From a virus, in IMG/VR virus record IMGVR_UViG_3300040808_001718, positions 1 through 22,489 of that record: DNA of 22,489 bases; one strand, 5' to 3'. How positions within the stretch are numbered: position 1 is the first letter of the stretch; each line of letters starts with the position of its first letter. Positions 1,056 through 18,420 of this stretch are shown piece after piece. The position numbers and the translations under genes were made by a program. The notes below the pieces were generated by a model. It was given only the letters and a program-made list of their open reading frames with translations. It made no database searches and was not told the DNA's origin.

Positions 1056-1297
1056 GCAAGAGGATCGTCATAAGGACTGGTTTCAAATTCCAAAATCAAG
1101 CGGCATAAGTACCATCTGGCTTTGCGAAGGTCTTCAGCACCATTTTTCTGGCGATACCGCCAGAGGTACTTGATGCAATTGCCGCGCAGATAGCCGATAA
1201 ACTCATCGAATGTCATTGCGGCTTTGATTGCCTCAATACATTCGACGCCGTTTGCGCTTTGGTAGTGCGCGGGAAAGTTGACAGAATCAGCCATCAT
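1052..1297 (-). CDS. DUF3310 family phage protein
   Basis: An 81-residue protein that matches the DUF3310 pattern: PAHY near the start, then ECIEAI, GYLRGNCIKYLWRYRQKNG and LRKARWYLCRLI. The family is very common in phage early regions and is often annotated loosely as a nucleotide kinase; its biochemical role is not established and no P-loop is present here. The start is backed by an AAAGGAGG Shine-Dalgarno that lies inside the end of the upstream gene, with a stop/start overlap (TCATGATG). The methionine is doubled (MM), so translation could begin at either. Confidence 0.88.
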   Translation of the reverse strand: MMADSVNFPAHYQSANGVECIEAIKAAMTFDEFIGYLRGNCIKYLWRYRQKNGAEDLRKARWYLCRLILEFETSPYDDPLA

Positions 1298-1887
1298 GAG
1301 TCCTCCTTTGTAATGGGAGCTTCAGAAATCAGCCTCAGCAGCAGGTCGCGTTGACGAAGGCGGGCGTCGGCAGCGGCGTAGGCGTTGGCAGCGGCGTAGG
1401 CAGCGGCGTAGGCATAGGCGGCGGTGTAGGCGGCGGCGGCGGCGGCGGTGTAGGCGGCGGCGGCGGCGGCGGCGGAACAGGCAGCAGCCTTGGGCCACTC
1501 CTTGCCTTCTGCCAACAAATCTATCCCGTTGATGACTGGGTCAATACAGGCTTGAATGTCATCAGGAACAGGCTGCAGCGCTCGCAGCTCTTCGGCGAGG
1601 AACTTCCAGCCGACGCGGCTCAGGTCTTTGCCGTCAGAGCCGATAGCCTGAGGAATCGCAGCAAAGAACAGAATCGCTTCATTAGAACGAAGCCCCTCAA
1701 AGATCGATTCAGCGATCCGGGTGACCATAAACGGGATGCCATATTGGTTCTCGATAAATTCAGGGTCGTCGTGGCCGTTGGCGAGACAACCAATGAAACA
1801 GGTCTCGTAGCTACCTTGCGCAACACGATCAGCGCTGACATGAGCTGTTACTTCGGATTTAAGCCGTTCAAAGTTTCTAGTAAGCAT
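1294..1887 (-). CDS. Protein with alanine/tyrosine-rich tract
   Basis: A 197-residue protein. Residues 1-130 look like an ordinary folded domain (LLAEGKEWPKA at its end). Residues 134-174 are a near-pure Ala/Tyr tract with AAAY and AYAAAY steps, and the C-terminus returns to a helical segment, LRQRDLLLRLISEAP. I recall phage and bacterial proteins with a similar layout (alanine-rich repeat, then a Leu-rich helix), but no function is known to me. The start follows an AAGGAGG Shine-Dalgarno. The long plus-strand Gly/Val reading frame over the same bases is only the complement of the GCN-rich repeat. The stop overlaps the DUF3310 start. Confidence 0.75.
   Translation of the reverse strand: MLTRNFERLKSEVTAHVSADRVAQGSYETCFIGCLANGHDDPEFIENQYGIPFMVTRIAESIFEGLRSNEAILFFAAIPQAIGSDGKDLSRVGWKFLAEELRALQPVPDDIQACIDPVINGIDLLAEGKEWPKAAACSAAAAAAAYTAAAAAAYTAAYAYAAAYAAANAYAAADARLRQRDLLLRLISEAPITKEDS
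1355..1487. repeat. Imperfect GGC/GTA trinucleotide low-complexity tract
   Basis: The plus strand is built of GGC triplets with regularly placed GTA, in units such as GGCGTAGGCAGC and GTAGGCGGCGGC. On the coding (minus) strand it gives Ala with interspersed Tyr. Period-3 slippage that preserves frame is the simplest origin, and copy number is likely to vary between relatives. Confidence 0.8.
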
Positions 1888-3626: not shown

Positions 3627-4160
3627 CTACACGAAATCGGCGTCAAAATCACCAGCCAAGAATTTATTTATCAATTTCTTCAAAAAGTACGTCCTTTTCA
3701 CATCTATATCATCCAATTTTGCATCCATACGCTCCACCAAATCCGCAGGCATGTTGCTCACGGTAAAGGTTTGTTTTTGTGTTGGTCCGGTCTTAAGTAA
3801 CTCTAATTTTTTATTTTCCGACTTAAAAATGTTGAAAGACCTTATAAGCGTACCAAAGGCCTTGTTGTCATACTTTGTAGAGGGCTGCTGAGCAAGCACC
3901 CTAACAATAGTGCCAGGCTCAATACTGGCGATGATTTCTTGTTGCTGCTCGATAGACATATCGCTGTTGCAGTAGCAGCGCATACTGGTGGCCGCATTAT
4001 TTAAACGGTCATATATCTTTTCTGAAGGATTAACAATTACACCTTCAATATATGGACGTTTTTTACTATCAGTAGCGGCAAAAGTTACACGAACTTCAAC
4101 AGGCAAACTGTCTGAATACTTACCCACTCTAAAACTGACTTCGGTTTCTTGTGACAGCAT
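3627..4160 (-). CDS. Hypothetical protein with possible ribbon-helix-helix C-terminus
   Basis: A 177-residue protein of unknown function. Residues 1-110 look beta-rich (VSFRVGKYSDSLPVEVRVTF, EPGTIVRVLAQQ), compatible with an OB-like fold, but this is only an impression. The C-terminal 50 residues (FTVSNMPADLVERMDAKL, then a Tyr/Phe-Leu-rich helix) have the strand-helix-helix rhythm of ribbon-helix-helix DNA-binding domains. The gene follows the primase-helicase and is AT-richer than it. No Shine-Dalgarno is visible; instead a 10-base-pair hairpin covers the bases just upstream of the ATG. Confidence 0.65.
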   Translation of the reverse strand: MLSQETEVSFRVGKYSDSLPVEVRVTFAATDSKKRPYIEGVIVNPSEKIYDRLNNAATSMRCYCNSDMSIEQQQEIIASIEPGTIVRVLAQQPSTKYDNKAFGTLIRSFNIFKSENKKLELLKTGPTQKQTFTVSNMPADLVERMDAKLDDIDVKRTYFLKKLINKFLAGDFDADFV

Positions 4161-4205: not shown

Positions 4206-6599
4206 TCAGTCGGACCACTTGTTCCAGGCCGCGTCCATCAGGGCGTCTGATTCCTCCTTGGTACGGTCCATCTCCTTCGCGCGGGGATATTGCCCTGAGT
4301 GTCCAGTATGGGCAGAACCCGCACCACCACTGGCTTCTGAGGGTGGACACCCCCCTAAATCAGCGGCAATGTGTCCAGTCTCGGCATCCGCACCTAAATC
4401 TAGGGTGGACACTTCTTCTTTTTCTGAGGTGCTGTCCACCCTGAGATCCGTTCCACTGGAAGGCTTCTTCTTGGGTGGACACACATACGCAACCTCTCCA
4501 CACGCGAGGACAGCCTGGTACGTCTTTTTTCCGTACCTACCAACCCCTGGAACTTCAACAATTAAGCCGCGCTTTACAAGCCGTTGGAGCGACTTCTGGA
4601 TAGCAGCCGTTTTTCCACCCACTACTGGGTCGGAATTGAGGTCTGTATTGGAAAATGCACGAGGGTGCCCAATACGAAGCCTCTGGAGCACCTTGTCAGT
4701 GACGCTGGAAGGCGATGTATTGCTGTCATCGACCTCTGGGGTGAAATCAGCCACGGAGAAGCTCAGGTCGTCCTCCTGGCGCATGATGAGCGCCGTACCA
4801 GAACGACCAAACCGTGACTTTTCAATCGTGACAATTCGGCTGTGCTCTGGAACGGAACCTTTTTCAACTTCTTCCTTGCTGGGCTTACGCAGTGACAGTG
4901 TGGTATCCACAGCATCCCGAATGGCAGAGGTGCCACGGAAACCGCCCTGCTTGTTGGCGTGGTGGATGATCAGGATGGTTGTCGCTGGAAACAGCACCCC
5001 GTTATTCCTGGTCAACCAATACAGCGGCGTCGCAAAGTCAGATTTGTTTTCATCAAATGCCCTACCACCAGAGCAGCCGATCAGCGAGTCAATAACAACA
5101 AGCTTGGGCTGGACCTTTTCCATCAGCTTGATGAACTGGGCGTAACGCTGGAGCGACCAGTCCGTGAGCAACTTGGTCCTGTCATCCAACGGGTATTCAA
5201 CCTCTTCCAGCTGCTCTTTGAGCTGTAGAAGCGGCTGGTCACCATTCAGGAGCAGCACAGGGCCTTGCTGGACTGGAACGTGCTTCCCCCGGACCACAAA
5301 GGGTGCTCCAGTAGCGATGTGCTTTGCCAGGGTCCAGGCAAACATAGATTTGCCGTCACCACCAGCGCCATAAATCAGGGCAACGGAAGGGTGCGGAAGC
5401 ACATCAGGGATCAGATATTCACGCTGACCGTCTAAATCCTGGAGCGCAGACACATCCATAAGCCCCTTAGCGCCTTCAAACTGAATCTGGTCAACGATTA
5501 GTTTTTCGAGTGCAAACTGGTCCCGGTAACCAGCATCCAGGGCCAAGCTGTTGAGCTTGAAGTTCATCTCAGCGGGGTTATCCAGCTCCAGATAGGACCG
5601 AGCCTTTTGAATTACTTCTTCAAACGACAGCGAAACACGCTGATAGAAAACAGGCTTGGCCTCAACTTCATCAACAACTGAGCCGCAGCCATCACGGGTG
5701 AACCTTGCCCGTTCTGGGTCGTAATGATCAGCTAGCCGGATGAGGCTCCCAAAGCCCAGACCACCTTGTTTAAAACCAGCATCCCAGCGGCTTTGGCAGG
5801 GGTCTTTGCCATCAGCCCAGTCATTTTCGTATTCAGAATCCTGGAGCGACCATTCACGCCACAGGTTGAGACCTTCATCACCAGGCAGGTCGGACTGGAG
5901 CATCGCACCGATCTGCCACCACAGCTGCTCAGAGCCCCTGCCTTGTGGCTGGATGACAGACAGACAGGACTGAGCAATGGCAATCCGTTCTTCGGTGGAA
6001 CGCATTGACCAGCGGCCATCACGGAGGGACTTACCGACCTTTTTGTCGTTCTTAGCCTTGAACGACTGCTTCATACGCTCTAGGAGCCACCCAGGAGCCT
6101 CTGGAACGGCGTTTAGGTCGCCTTTAAGGGTGTATGTACCACCAGCGGGGTAGGCACCGTTTAGAAGCCCTTGGCGGCCCCACAGAACTTCCCAGCCTTC
6201 ACCGCTAGCAGCGAGGCTGATGTCCGATACCTCAGTCCAAAGTTCCTGCGGAACGGTGAACAGAAATTTTGCAGCCGCTTTCTTGGGCGATGTAATGCGT
6301 GGAGCGTTAGCTAGGTCTTTGCCCCACTTGGCCACAACAGCGCCGAGGTTGGCATCAACGTCGAGGATCACCAGCCCTTCAGAGCGTGGTCCTGTAAAAA
6401 CACCAACAGCCTGAAAGGTTTCGGGCTGACGCTCGATGACCATCGCCGTGGCTTCGGGCGCCATCTTGTCGTGGTGCGCCCTACCAAGGGGATTCTTGCC
6501 GCAGGCTTCGCCACCTTTCGGCAGTGGAACGCCTTTTTTGTAGATAGGCGCTGTTGCCCAATGGTTCGGCAAAGACCGAACAAACGACAGCAGATTCAT
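4206..6599 (-). CDS. Replicative primase-helicase (PrimPol-like N-terminus, RecA-fold helicase)
   Basis: A 797-residue protein that would synthesise primers and unwind DNA at the phage fork. Residues about 1-170 resemble a bifunctional primase/polymerase domain: a VGVFTG step at 65-70 and LDVD (D80, D82) as the likely metal-binding acidic pair. Residues about 200-293 fit a primase C-terminal (PriCT-2-like) domain (LWWQIGAML, LWREWS, FGSLIRLA). Residues about 398-610 are a RepA/DnaB-type RecA fold: Walker A GAGGDGKS (411-418), Walker B KLVVIDSL (499-506), then ILIIHHANK and FRGTSAIRDAVD. A winged-helix segment follows (about 635-690). The last 90 residues are low-complexity and disordered-looking, and their DNA carries the GGGTGGACA repeats. 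The start has a TAGGAG Shine-Dalgarno. Confidence 0.88.
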   Translation of the reverse strand: MNLLSFVRSLPNHWATAPIYKKGVPLPKGGEACGKNPLGRAHHDKMAPEATAMVIERQPETFQAVGVFTGPRSEGLVILDVDANLGAVVAKWGKDLANAPRITSPKKAAAKFLFTVPQELWTEVSDISLAASGEGWEVLWGRQGLLNGAYPAGGTYTLKGDLNAVPEAPGWLLERMKQSFKAKNDKKVGKSLRDGRWSMRSTEERIAIAQSCLSVIQPQGRGSEQLWWQIGAMLQSDLPGDEGLNLWREWSLQDSEYENDWADGKDPCQSRWDAGFKQGGLGFGSLIRLADHYDPERARFTRDGCGSVVDEVEAKPVFYQRVSLSFEEVIQKARSYLELDNPAEMNFKLNSLALDAGYRDQFALEKLIVDQIQFEGAKGLMDVSALQDLDGQREYLIPDVLPHPSVALIYGAGGDGKSMFAWTLAKHIATGAPFVVRGKHVPVQQGPVLLLNGDQPLLQLKEQLEEVEYPLDDRTKLLTDWSLQRYAQFIKLMEKVQPKLVVIDSLIGCSGGRAFDENKSDFATPLYWLTRNNGVLFPATTILIIHHANKQGGFRGTSAIRDAVDTTLSLRKPSKEEVEKGSVPEHSRIVTIEKSRFGRSGTALIMRQEDDLSFSVADFTPEVDDSNTSPSSVTDKVLQRLRIGHPRAFSNTDLNSDPVVGGKTAAIQKSLQRLVKRGLIVEVPGVGRYGKKTYQAVLACGEVAYVCPPKKKPSSGTDLRVDSTSEKEEVSTLDLGADAETGHIAADLGGCPPSEASGGAGSAHTGHSGQYPRAKEMDRTKEESDALMDAAWNKWSD
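4341..4482. repeat. Cluster of GGGTGGACA repeats inside the primase-helicase gene
   Basis: The 10-mer GGGTGGACAC occurs at 4341-4350, 4403-4412 and 4473-4482, and the inverse 9-mer TGTCCACCC at 4433-4441. A fifth copy (TGTCCACCC) is at 6680-6688, upstream of the plus-strand promoter. In the coding strand the copies fall in different frames and orientations (CPP twice, STL, VDS), so the repeat is at DNA rather than protein level. Iterons or regulator sites are the candidate roles. Confidence 0.6.
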
Positions 6600-6665: not shown

Positions 6666-6697
6666 CATTGTAGCGAAGCTGTCCACCCTCATCAGTG

Positions 6698-6749: not shown

Positions 6750-7328
6750 ATGGGTTTCCTAAAGAACAAAGAGGCCGTTGCAGGCAACGCAGGCGGCGGT
6801 TATCTAAACCCCAGCAAAATCCAGGCAGGCAGCCAGGTTCGTTTTGCGTTGCTGGCCGAAGAGCCACTGGAATTTTATGAGTGCTGGGGCGAAGCTACAG
6901 ACGGCAGTGTCAGGCCATTCAGGTTTCTTGACGACCCATCACCTGCTGATGTTGAGCAGGAGATGGGGCCAGGCTATTCACGCCGGATGAACCGTGAAGG
7001 CACTGGACCGGAAGCCGTCAAGTTTGCGATTGCTGTGCCCTGCTACAGCCACGACACAAAGACCATTCAGGTTCTGAGCATCACCCAGAAGTCAATCATC
7101 AAGGAATTTGACAGCCTTTCCCAAATGGAAGACTACGAAAACCTGATGGAATGGGACTTTGTTTTGAGCAAGGAAGGCTCAGGACTGAACACGGAGTACA
7201 CGCTACGGCCTGTACCTCGTAAGTCCAGCCAAGCGGTGCTGGATAAGGCGTGGGACGCAGCATTAAAGGCTGGTTTTGACATCACCAGGCTGATTGCTGG
7301 TGGTAATCCATTCAAGGAAGCTGCCTAG
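6750..7328 (+). CDS. Probable single-stranded DNA-binding protein
   Basis: A 192-residue protein whose layout resembles phage ssDNA-binding proteins of the gp32/OB-fold sort: GGYLNPSKIQAGSQVRFALL at the N-terminus, RRMNREGTGPEAVKFAIAVP, a strand with VLSITQKSIIKEF, then WDFVLSKEGSGLNTEYTLRP. The pair of IQVLSITQKSI and W-x-[FL]-x-[LI]-x-[RK]-x-G-x-GLxTxYT is what I associate with this class. It is the first gene divergent from the primase-helicase and is followed by a nuclease, which fits a replication/recombination role. No acidic C-terminal tail is seen (it ends NPFKEAA). Family assignment is by pattern only. Confidence 0.58.
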   Translation: MGFLKNKEAVAGNAGGGYLNPSKIQAGSQVRFALLAEEPLEFYECWGEATDGSVRPFRFLDDPSPADVEQEMGPGYSRRMNREGTGPEAVKFAIAVPCYSHDTKTIQVLSITQKSIIKEFDSLSQMEDYENLMEWDFVLSKEGSGLNTEYTLRPVPRKSSQAVLDKAWDAALKAGFDITRLIAGGNPFKEAA

Positions 7329-8736: not shown

Positions 8737-8893
8737 GGTACGTAAGTAGGGGCGATGTGTGGGCCTAGTAGAAACCTAGAACACATTCAAGGATTTTGCA
8801 AGCGAGCTGCGCCATTCATAGCGCCACAAGTCCTAATTTGGCTGTAATTAGGAATAGATGGATGTTAAAAATTCGCCTTTACCTAGGTCACCG

Positions 8894-8966
8894 CATTCAA
8901 GCAGCCATGGCCGGATTTGCCATTCAAGCGGCCACGGCCTAATTTGCCATTCAAGCAGCTGGAACG
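8894..8966. repeat. 27-base tandem repeats beginning CATTCAAGC
   Basis: Copies start at 8894, 8921 and 8948 (the last partial), each CATTCAAGC[AG]GC followed by a GGCC-type and an ATTTGC segment. The third copy, CATTCAAGCAGCTGGAACG, matches a site within the nuclease gene (from about 8309) at 18 of 19 bases. Confidence 0.75.
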
Positions 8967-8984: not shown

Positions 8985-9064
8985 TGCCGTAGTGCCGTAG
9001 TGCCGTAGTGCCGTAGTGCCGTAGTGCCGTAGTGCCGTAGTGCCGTAGTGCCGTAGTGCCGTGG
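8985..9064. repeat. Tandem 8-base repeat TGCCGTAG, ten copies
   Basis: Nine perfect copies of TGCCGTAG followed by one variant (TGCCGTGG). The period is not a multiple of three, so it is unlikely to be in a gene; slippage or a multi-site binding array are the options. Confidence 0.95.
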
Positions 9065-17337: not shown

Positions 17338-18420
17338 ATGGCCGCACCATTTCAGAATTATTCCGGCGGTGTCCTGCTCGCGGACATCGTAAAGAGGAAT
17401 AATCTCAGCACCTATGTGTCTGAGGCAGTAAAAGAGCGCAGCTTGTTCATCAAGTCTGGCGCTGTTGTTCGTAATCCTTTGCTGGATGCCCGCGAAGGCG
17501 GCACCCGCATCCAAGTCCCTGAGTTCAATCCAGTATCTCCAACTGAGGAGATCATGGACGGTACAGCTACGTGGGGCACAAGCACCGCTGGCTACCTGAC
17601 TCCACAGAAGATTGGCACGGGCACCCAGATCGCGTCTATCTGCCATCGCGGTTTCGCGTATGCAGTGGACGACGTTGCAATGTTGGCAGCGGGCGAAGAC
17701 CCAATGCTTCACATCCGCAACCAGCTTGCCGATGCAATCAACAAGTTGAACAGCGCACGTCTGTTCTCGCAGCTTGCCGGTTTGTTTGGCACAGCATTGT
17801 CTGCCCATTCATTGGACAAGGCAGTTGCTGCAACCTCAGGACAAGGCGAAGCCAACTTCCTGACCGCAGCCAATGTGGCTGAGGCCCGCGCTGCTCTTGG
17901 CGAGCGTGGCGATGAGCTGGACACCTTGATTGTCCACCCATCCGTTGGTTTCTACCTGTATCAGGTTGGCCTTCTTACCTTCAGCACCTCTGCACTAGCC
18001 GCTTCTGGCGCCGTGACCTGGGGTGGTGGTGGCGTAGGCGTCGGCGCACGCAGCATCGGCGAATTTGCTGGCTGCAACGTGATCATGGACCCACAGGTCA
18101 ACACTGTGATCCCTGGCACGGCAACCCACGTCAAGGAGTTCCGCTGCTACCTGATGAAGGGTGGTTCAGTTCTGGAAGGCGTCCAGCAGGATCTGCGCAT
18201 TGAAGCAGACCGCAACGTGCTCTCGAAGCAAGACGTGCTTTCTGTGGACTACCACACCGCCTATCACGTGATGGGCACCAAGTGGACAAGTGCTGGTGAC
18301 AACCCTACCAACGGCACGCTGGCCACTGCTGGCAACTGGGCAGCCACCTACGACACCGACCTGATCCCAATGGTCGAGCTGATCGTCAACAGCCCACTGG
18401 ACACCAGCGCAATCGCCTGA
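17338..18420 (+). CDS. Major capsid protein
   Basis: A 360-residue protein consistent with an HK97-fold capsid subunit: a helical N-terminus (GGVLLADIVKRNNLSTYVSE), IQVPEFNPVSPTEE and EDPMLHIRNQLADAINKLNS (spine-helix region), LDTLIVHPSVGFYLYQVGLL, GEFAGCNVIMDP, and EFRCYLMKGGSVLEGVQQDL with DVLSVDYHTAYHVMGTKW (P-domain strands). It follows the scaffold and ends at a strong terminator. Codon use is GC-richer and more uniform than in flanking genes, as expected for a highly expressed product. Confidence 0.92.
   Translation: MAAPFQNYSGGVLLADIVKRNNLSTYVSEAVKERSLFIKSGAVVRNPLLDAREGGTRIQVPEFNPVSPTEEIMDGTATWGTSTAGYLTPQKIGTGTQIASICHRGFAYAVDDVAMLAAGEDPMLHIRNQLADAINKLNSARLFSQLAGLFGTALSAHSLDKAVAATSGQGEANFLTAANVAEARAALGERGDELDTLIVHPSVGFYLYQVGLLTFSTSALAASGAVTWGGGGVGVGARSIGEFAGCNVIMDPQVNTVIPGTATHVKEFRCYLMKGGSVLEGVQQDLRIEADRNVLSKQDVLSVDYHTAYHVMGTKWTSAGDNPTNGTLATAGNWAATYDTDLIPMVELIVNSPLDTSAIA

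Follow-up and report, generated by a model that had tools for sequence, protein, structure and literature searches.

The 3′ end of the primase-helicase gene in the virus record IMGVR_UViG_3300040808_001718 carries a cluster of short repeats, which raises the question of what these repeats do and which protein reads them. The window analysed here is the complete record of 22,489 nt (22.5 kb). A first-pass annotation had described clustered copies of GGGTGGACA in this gene and had proposed them as origin iterons. The cluster was confirmed, since GGGTGGACA occurs six times in the window, a count that no dinucleotide shuffle attained (0.18 expected), and four of the exact copies lie within 4341-4481, at 4341-4349 (+), 4403-4411 (+), 4433-4441 (-) and 4473-4481 (+), all three + strand copies reading GGGTGGACAC. 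The two remaining copies are found outside the array at 6680-6688 (-) and, within the major capsid gene, at 17931-17939 (-). The copies that had been named were thus correct, but the list was incomplete, as it had overlooked the capsid copy and two weaker sites with a TGGACA core at 4300 and 4372, which extend the cluster to a six-site array (4300-4482) with strictly alternating strands. It had also been argued that selection acts on the DNA, the repeats being in different frames and orientations; this holds, as the four exact array copies occupy two reading frames and both orientations, and the 7-base core, present four times in the tail of the gene, falls to 0.41 copies after synonymous-codon shuffling (maximum 2 in 500). 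The features of the locus are collected in Table 1.

Table 1. Positions of the array, its sites and the surrounding features in the window.
Feature	Position	Strand	Remarks
Primase-helicase gene, 797 aa	4206..6599	-	Prim-Pol, PriCT-2, RecA-like AAA_25, C-terminal winged helix, disordered tail
Winged-helix coding segment (aa 618-704), recognition-helix residue Q668	4488..4748	-	AF2 and PDB fold matches; co-variation
Disordered tail stretch (aa 698-780, pLDDT <50)	4260..4508	-	Full-length model; read-through of array
Iteron array, putative origin	4300..4482	.	Six of eight ancestral sites; layout conserved in relatives
Site 1, GGGTGGACAC	4473..4482	+	Exact motif count
Site 2, GGGTGGACA	4433..4441	-	Site 3, present 13 bases on in other clades, lost in window
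Site 4, GGGTGGACAC	4403..4412	+	Exact motif count
Site 5, weaker copy AGACTGGACA	4372..4381	-	Full AGGGTGGACA in L028, L029, L031
Site 7, GGGTGGACAC	4341..4350	+	Site 6 lost in window
Site 8, weaker copy ATACTGGACA	4300..4309	-	Full GGGTGGACA in L028-L031
TGGAACG box	4449..4455	-	Arm between sites 1 and 2
TGGTGCG box (variant)	4320..4326	-	Arm between sites 7 and 8
Single iteron, primase/SSB intergenic, putative autoregulatory operator	6680..6688	-	Invariant in 17 close relatives, flanks vary
SSB-like gene	6750..7328	+	Conserved beside primase

The domain composition of the encoded protein was determined using Pfam, which returned AAA_25 and PriCT-2, a weak Prim-Pol match (PF09250) just below the cut-off (22.0 vs 22.8) and no Toprim or SF3 match; PF09250 scored above the cut-off in relative L129. 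NCBIfam gave no match, and no solved structure was related to the protein by sequence at E 0.01. No close cultured relatives were found, the best matches being S-EIV1 and S-CBS4 (25-28% identity over about a third of the protein), and no array was found 3′ of the primase gene of S-EIV1. Structure prediction placed a winged helix of three helices and two strands at about aa 633-697 (mean pLDDT 74 for the domain alone), with winged-helix fold matches in the PDB (VIA Z about 10), namely Hop2, MarR-type regulators and Z-alpha; residue 668 falls within the predicted recognition helix (664-676 in the full-length model). The same model agrees with the earlier placing of the repeats in a disordered tail. 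A predicted C-terminal helix at aa 781-796 (4212-4259), RTKEESDALMDAAWNKW, is kept in many long-tail relatives and may be a protein-interaction peptide.

Relatives were gathered in an initial scan that yielded 80 loci with 50-100% identity to the primase-helicase gene, and later scans extended the set to 191 distinct primase genes whose 3′ end is closed, many of the records being fragments. The genes broadly conserved across the 80 loci are those encoding the primase-helicase, the SSB-like protein and an exonuclease. In a 7-mer search around the stop codon that presupposed no motif, the commonest word reached at least five copies in 117 of the 191 regions, against none of 710 same-sized control windows within the same genes. 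Most of the 191 relatives carry an array whose sites recur at fixed positions and on fixed strands, the fullest layout being a nearly dyad-symmetric set of eight sites (+ 40 - 13 - 19 + 19 - 18 + 13 + 40 -, in L256), of which sites 1, 2, 4, 5, 7 and 8 are kept in the window. The motif itself drifts in concert without a change of position or orientation: lineages differ, with AGGGTGGACA, CAGGTGGACA, CAATGGGACA, GGTTGGGACA, ACCCTGGACA and even AAATGCGACA-type motifs, and copies within one genome agree. In L129, which has AAATGCGACA-type sites, the otherwise fixed GGACA has become GCGACA in all six copies. Judged in whole records of long relatives, the motif is almost confined to the array, all five exact copies lying within it in relatives of 48 and 56 kb, which amounts to almost one locus per genome; the 9-mer of the window is likewise not a genome-wide repeat. 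This distribution led us to reject stoperators of the mycobacteriophage type, which are repressor sites scattered genome-wide.

The array is not confined to the coding sequence. It lies within the gene in 92 relatives (median protein 806 aa), straddles the stop codon in 55 (758 aa) and is mostly 3′ of it in 38 (711 aa). The encoded residues at the sites vary by frame (CP, VS, VD, GQ or GT), and the 4-7 core copies of the tail fall to less than one in synonymous shuffles. The DNA repeats thus persist in relatives in which the residues, the reading frame and even the place of the stop codon are different, and selection acts on the DNA, because in relatives with short proteins the array spans the stop codon or follows it. 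The disordered tail of the window's protein arises where the reading frame runs through the array.

The reader of the array was sought by comparing changes in the motif with changes in the protein on a tree built from aa 1-600, which leaves out the winged helix. Eight branches of this tree show a switch of base 5 between T and non-T; seven of them also carry a change of residue 668, which in the remaining case (L087) precedes the switch by one branch. In a simple parsimony count, which takes no account of branch length, the column most strongly associated with base 5 among all 797 is residue 668 (p 1.1e-8), the other high-ranking columns belonging mostly to the array-encoded tail or the winged helix, and a Pagel test prefers dependent change of base 5 and residue 668 (LR 47.6). 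For base 4 the association with residue 668 (p 1.3e-11) stands far above that of any other column. The correspondence is nearly deterministic: R668 occurs with TG (109) or TA (8) at bases 4-5, the exceptions being GT (2) and TT (1); K668 with GG in 12 of 13; Q668 with GT (17), CT (15) or TT (2) in all 34; and H668 with CT in 13 of 14, the exception being L129, where H668 is found with TG (TGC). Bases 1 and 3 track residues 682-692 of the wing, base 1 being led by columns 688, 692 and 690 and base 3 by columns 687, 685 and 683, and base 2 shows a mixed column association. Joint transfer of the adjacent array and winged-helix codons by recombination could link motif and residue; linkage alone, however, would not single out one residue, and 668 stands far above its neighbours. 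Since one residue of the predicted recognition helix varies in step with the repeats across about 190 relatives, the primase-helicase in all likelihood recognises the iterons encoded in its own gene, and this co-variation is the strongest evidence that it would bind the array. Two kinds of binder had been put forward in the first-pass annotation, and of these the primase-helicase is favoured by the co-variation, but the RHH protein is present in only 26 of the 80 loci.

A second word sets the surroundings of the array apart. No other 7-mers are as over-represented in the window, by count and by excess, as TGGAACG and TGGAGCG, and TGG[AG][AG]CG (TGGRRCG) occurs 43 times forward and 12 times in reverse over its whole length, its density being about one per 400-500 bases. 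TGGAACG leads or is among the leading words in six long relatives; no excess of TGGRRCG was found in three other phages. Counts pooled over 49 clade representatives, in gene orientation, gave forward/reverse values of 41/230 in the primase gene, 7/113 in the next 1.5 kb upstream and 34/230 further upstream, against 57/7 inside the array, 92/69 in the first 1.5 kb downstream and 73/133 at 1.5-6 kb downstream. The polarity therefore reverses at the array, sharply on the primase side only, the far side being mixed. A two-sided flip in single records reached Fisher p <0.05 only in the window and in G018, so that it is the pooled count that serves as evidence. The antisense word is found 215 times in the gene against 31 (sd 6) in synonymous shuffles, a sevenfold excess, whereas the sense word shows none (45 vs 52). 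Among 271 distinct 40-base arms of the array, 125 contain TGGRRCG, at a distance from the second site that is almost always 13, 14 or 17 bases.

The polarity agrees with a fork that would depart mostly by way of the primase gene and would have TGGRRCG on its lagging-strand template; it agrees about equally well with a Chi-like or KOPS-like role of the word. One proposal, to which we would give somewhat less than even chances, is that TGGRRCG (more widely TGGNRCG) is the template word at which the Prim-Pol starts primers, so that the copies in the array would start the leading strand and the polar copies would be lagging-strand starts. If so, the origin, the direction of the fork and the Okazaki starts could be read from these genomes, whose iteron code would also have been rewritten several times together with one residue of the initiator. 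In the open papers that were searched, no description of the array or of the TGGRRCG word was found.

The base composition of the locus was also examined. A switch in GC skew near 4.4 kb, which would have been expected from the first-pass annotation, did not appear: in the window the cumulative skew has its peak near 3-3.5 kb, and six long relatives do not consistently reach an extremum where the array lies. In mean 50-base bins, no AT-rich segment that might serve for opening stood out beside the array, shorter elements being below this resolution. A G+C-rich inverted repeat (CGCGCGGGGA-like) at 4276-4290 / 4492-4507 seems to flank the array in several relatives. Elsewhere in the window, a tandem 9-base repeat, GTAGTGCCG, is present in about eight copies at 8990-9062 and adjoins CATTCAAG repeats at 8785-8960, and the gene at 1294-1887 (-) contains an alanine-rich, G+C-rich low-complexity run at 1370-1480.

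The copy of the iteron at 6680-6688 had been noted earlier and assigned to the -35 position of a promoter. The copy itself is secure, being found at the same place in 17 relatives, but the -35 role is not borne out, as the promoter scan listed no promoter there; the copy instead sits between the -35 and -10 positions of a plausible leftward primase promoter (TACAAT, 6672-6667). No exact copy occurs at this position in other clades. In the clade of the window, binding of the protein to this iteron may repress the primase gene.

Together, these data suggest that the phage very probably uses the array as its replication origin and as the site to which its own primase-helicase binds. The origin assignment, which is in line with the earlier proposal, is drawn from the anatomy of the array, its co-variation with the primase-helicase and the polarity of TGGRRCG. 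As judged by co-variation, the C-terminal winged helix would dock on the iterons, residue 668 reading bases 4-5 and the wing bases 1-3. The two inverted groups of four sites would place the protein around the central dyad, where the RecA-like domain may open the DNA. Going by the polarity, the Prim-Pol would prime the first strand, probably at the TGGRRCG boxes in the outer arms, and the fork would leave mainly via the primase gene, with the Prim-Pol priming at the same word on the lagging-strand template.

Among the alternatives, an operator or silencer bound by the winged helix, which would regulate its own gene and its neighbours and have no origin role, seems unlikely. The lone motif copy in the primase promoter of the window clade and the resemblance of the fold to MarR-type regulators are in its favour, yet that copy is limited to one clade, whereas in every clade the symmetric eight-site array lies at the 3′ end of the gene and away from the promoter, the proposed binder is a replication enzyme, and the polarity of TGGRRCG reverses at the array. 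Hairpins in RNA or single-stranded DNA, formed by the alternating inverted copies, whose opposite members are complementary, would recall the stem-loop 3′ of the Prim-Pol gene in pRN1 (PMC4234260). Every copy in a genome nevertheless keeps one motif and not pairwise complementarity, two of the pairs are same-strand copies 13 bases apart, and the motif bases track DNA-reading residues, all of which makes such structures a very improbable explanation of the array; a cruciform may still form as an additional step.

A slighter chance still is given to a partition or regulatory site of an RHH protein (3627-4160) or of an HTH protein. The gene at 3627-4160 adjoins the array, its C-terminal sequence is RHH-like by eye, and RHH proteins bind short repeats, but nearly all complete loci have the array, most of them without this gene, and the motif tracks residue 668 of the primase-helicase; the RHH protein was accordingly rejected as the conserved binder. 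Selection could instead act on a repetitive protein tail encoded by the repeats (CPP, VD, GQ/GH motifs), with the DNA pattern as a by-product, which would agree with the coding position of all sites in the window and with the disorder of the tail. This reading, which we regard as having a negligible probability, is contradicted by sites in different frames and orientations and by the loss of the motif in synonymous shuffles, and is refuted because the same arrays are untranslated in some relatives, namely those with short proteins.

Origins within or beside initiator genes are known from several systems. The origin of phage lambda has four direct iterons within gene O, whose product is a helicase recruiter. 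Iterons inside an initiator gene are thus shared with lambda, but the array lies outside the gene in other clades here, and lambda has no dyad array and an O protein that is not a primase-helicase. The alpha protein of phage P4 resembles the protein of the window in joining a primase and a helicase to a winged helix for the binding of origin repeats (PMC4234260); it is, however, a Toprim primase with an SF3 helicase, whereas the window encodes a Prim-Pol with a RecA-like AAA_25 domain and so does not belong to the P4 alpha family, and its array is dyad-symmetric and, among relatives, inside or just after the gene. SaPI Rep and SCCmec Cch2 use their C-terminal domain to read iterons that immediately follow the initiator-helicase gene, and two hexamers have been proposed (PMC7581432). 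The likeness lies in this position and mode of recognition; unlike in the window, the primase is separate, the helicase is of another family and the array is untranslated. In pRN1 ORF904 and BIP-1-type phage proteins, Prim-Pol, helicase and winged helix are combined and the origin is just 3′ of the gene (PMC4234260). The N-terminal Prim-Pol and the winged helix are shared with the window, which has no SF3 helicase and an iteron array in place of the iteron-free stem-loop of the pRN1 origin, so that its protein is not a member of this group. The common theme of P4 alpha, SaPI Rep, SCCmec Cch2 and pRN1 ORF904 is that the DNA-binding domain of an initiator helicase reads the origin sites, and in the last three the origin is beside its own gene. 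In Pseudomonas phage vB_PstS-pAN (L410), ten TGTTGGGT copies lie 15-312 bases after the stop codon of a PriCT-2 primase gene, whose product (PriCT-2, Toprim_3, DUF5906) is a P4 alpha-type analogue and not a homologue along its length. With regard to priming, the Prim-Pol of phage NrS-1 requires a template word of 8 nt, for which a role as origin marker has been suggested (PMC7102993) and which occurs twice in the genome, in contrast to the frequent and strand-polar TGGRRCG, and for PolpTN2 the winged helix of a Prim-Pol had been proposed to act in origin recognition (PMC5862659).

For uncultured phages, the origins of almost all of which are unknown, an origin and its reader can here be proposed by sequence in some 190 genomes, and the near-deterministic code from residue to base would predict which primase-helicase serves which origin. 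The array appears as an origin that has been absorbed into and released from coding sequence, which would offer a simple reason for a disordered protein tail. If TGGRRCG is a priming site, the direction of the fork may become readable from metagenomic contigs.
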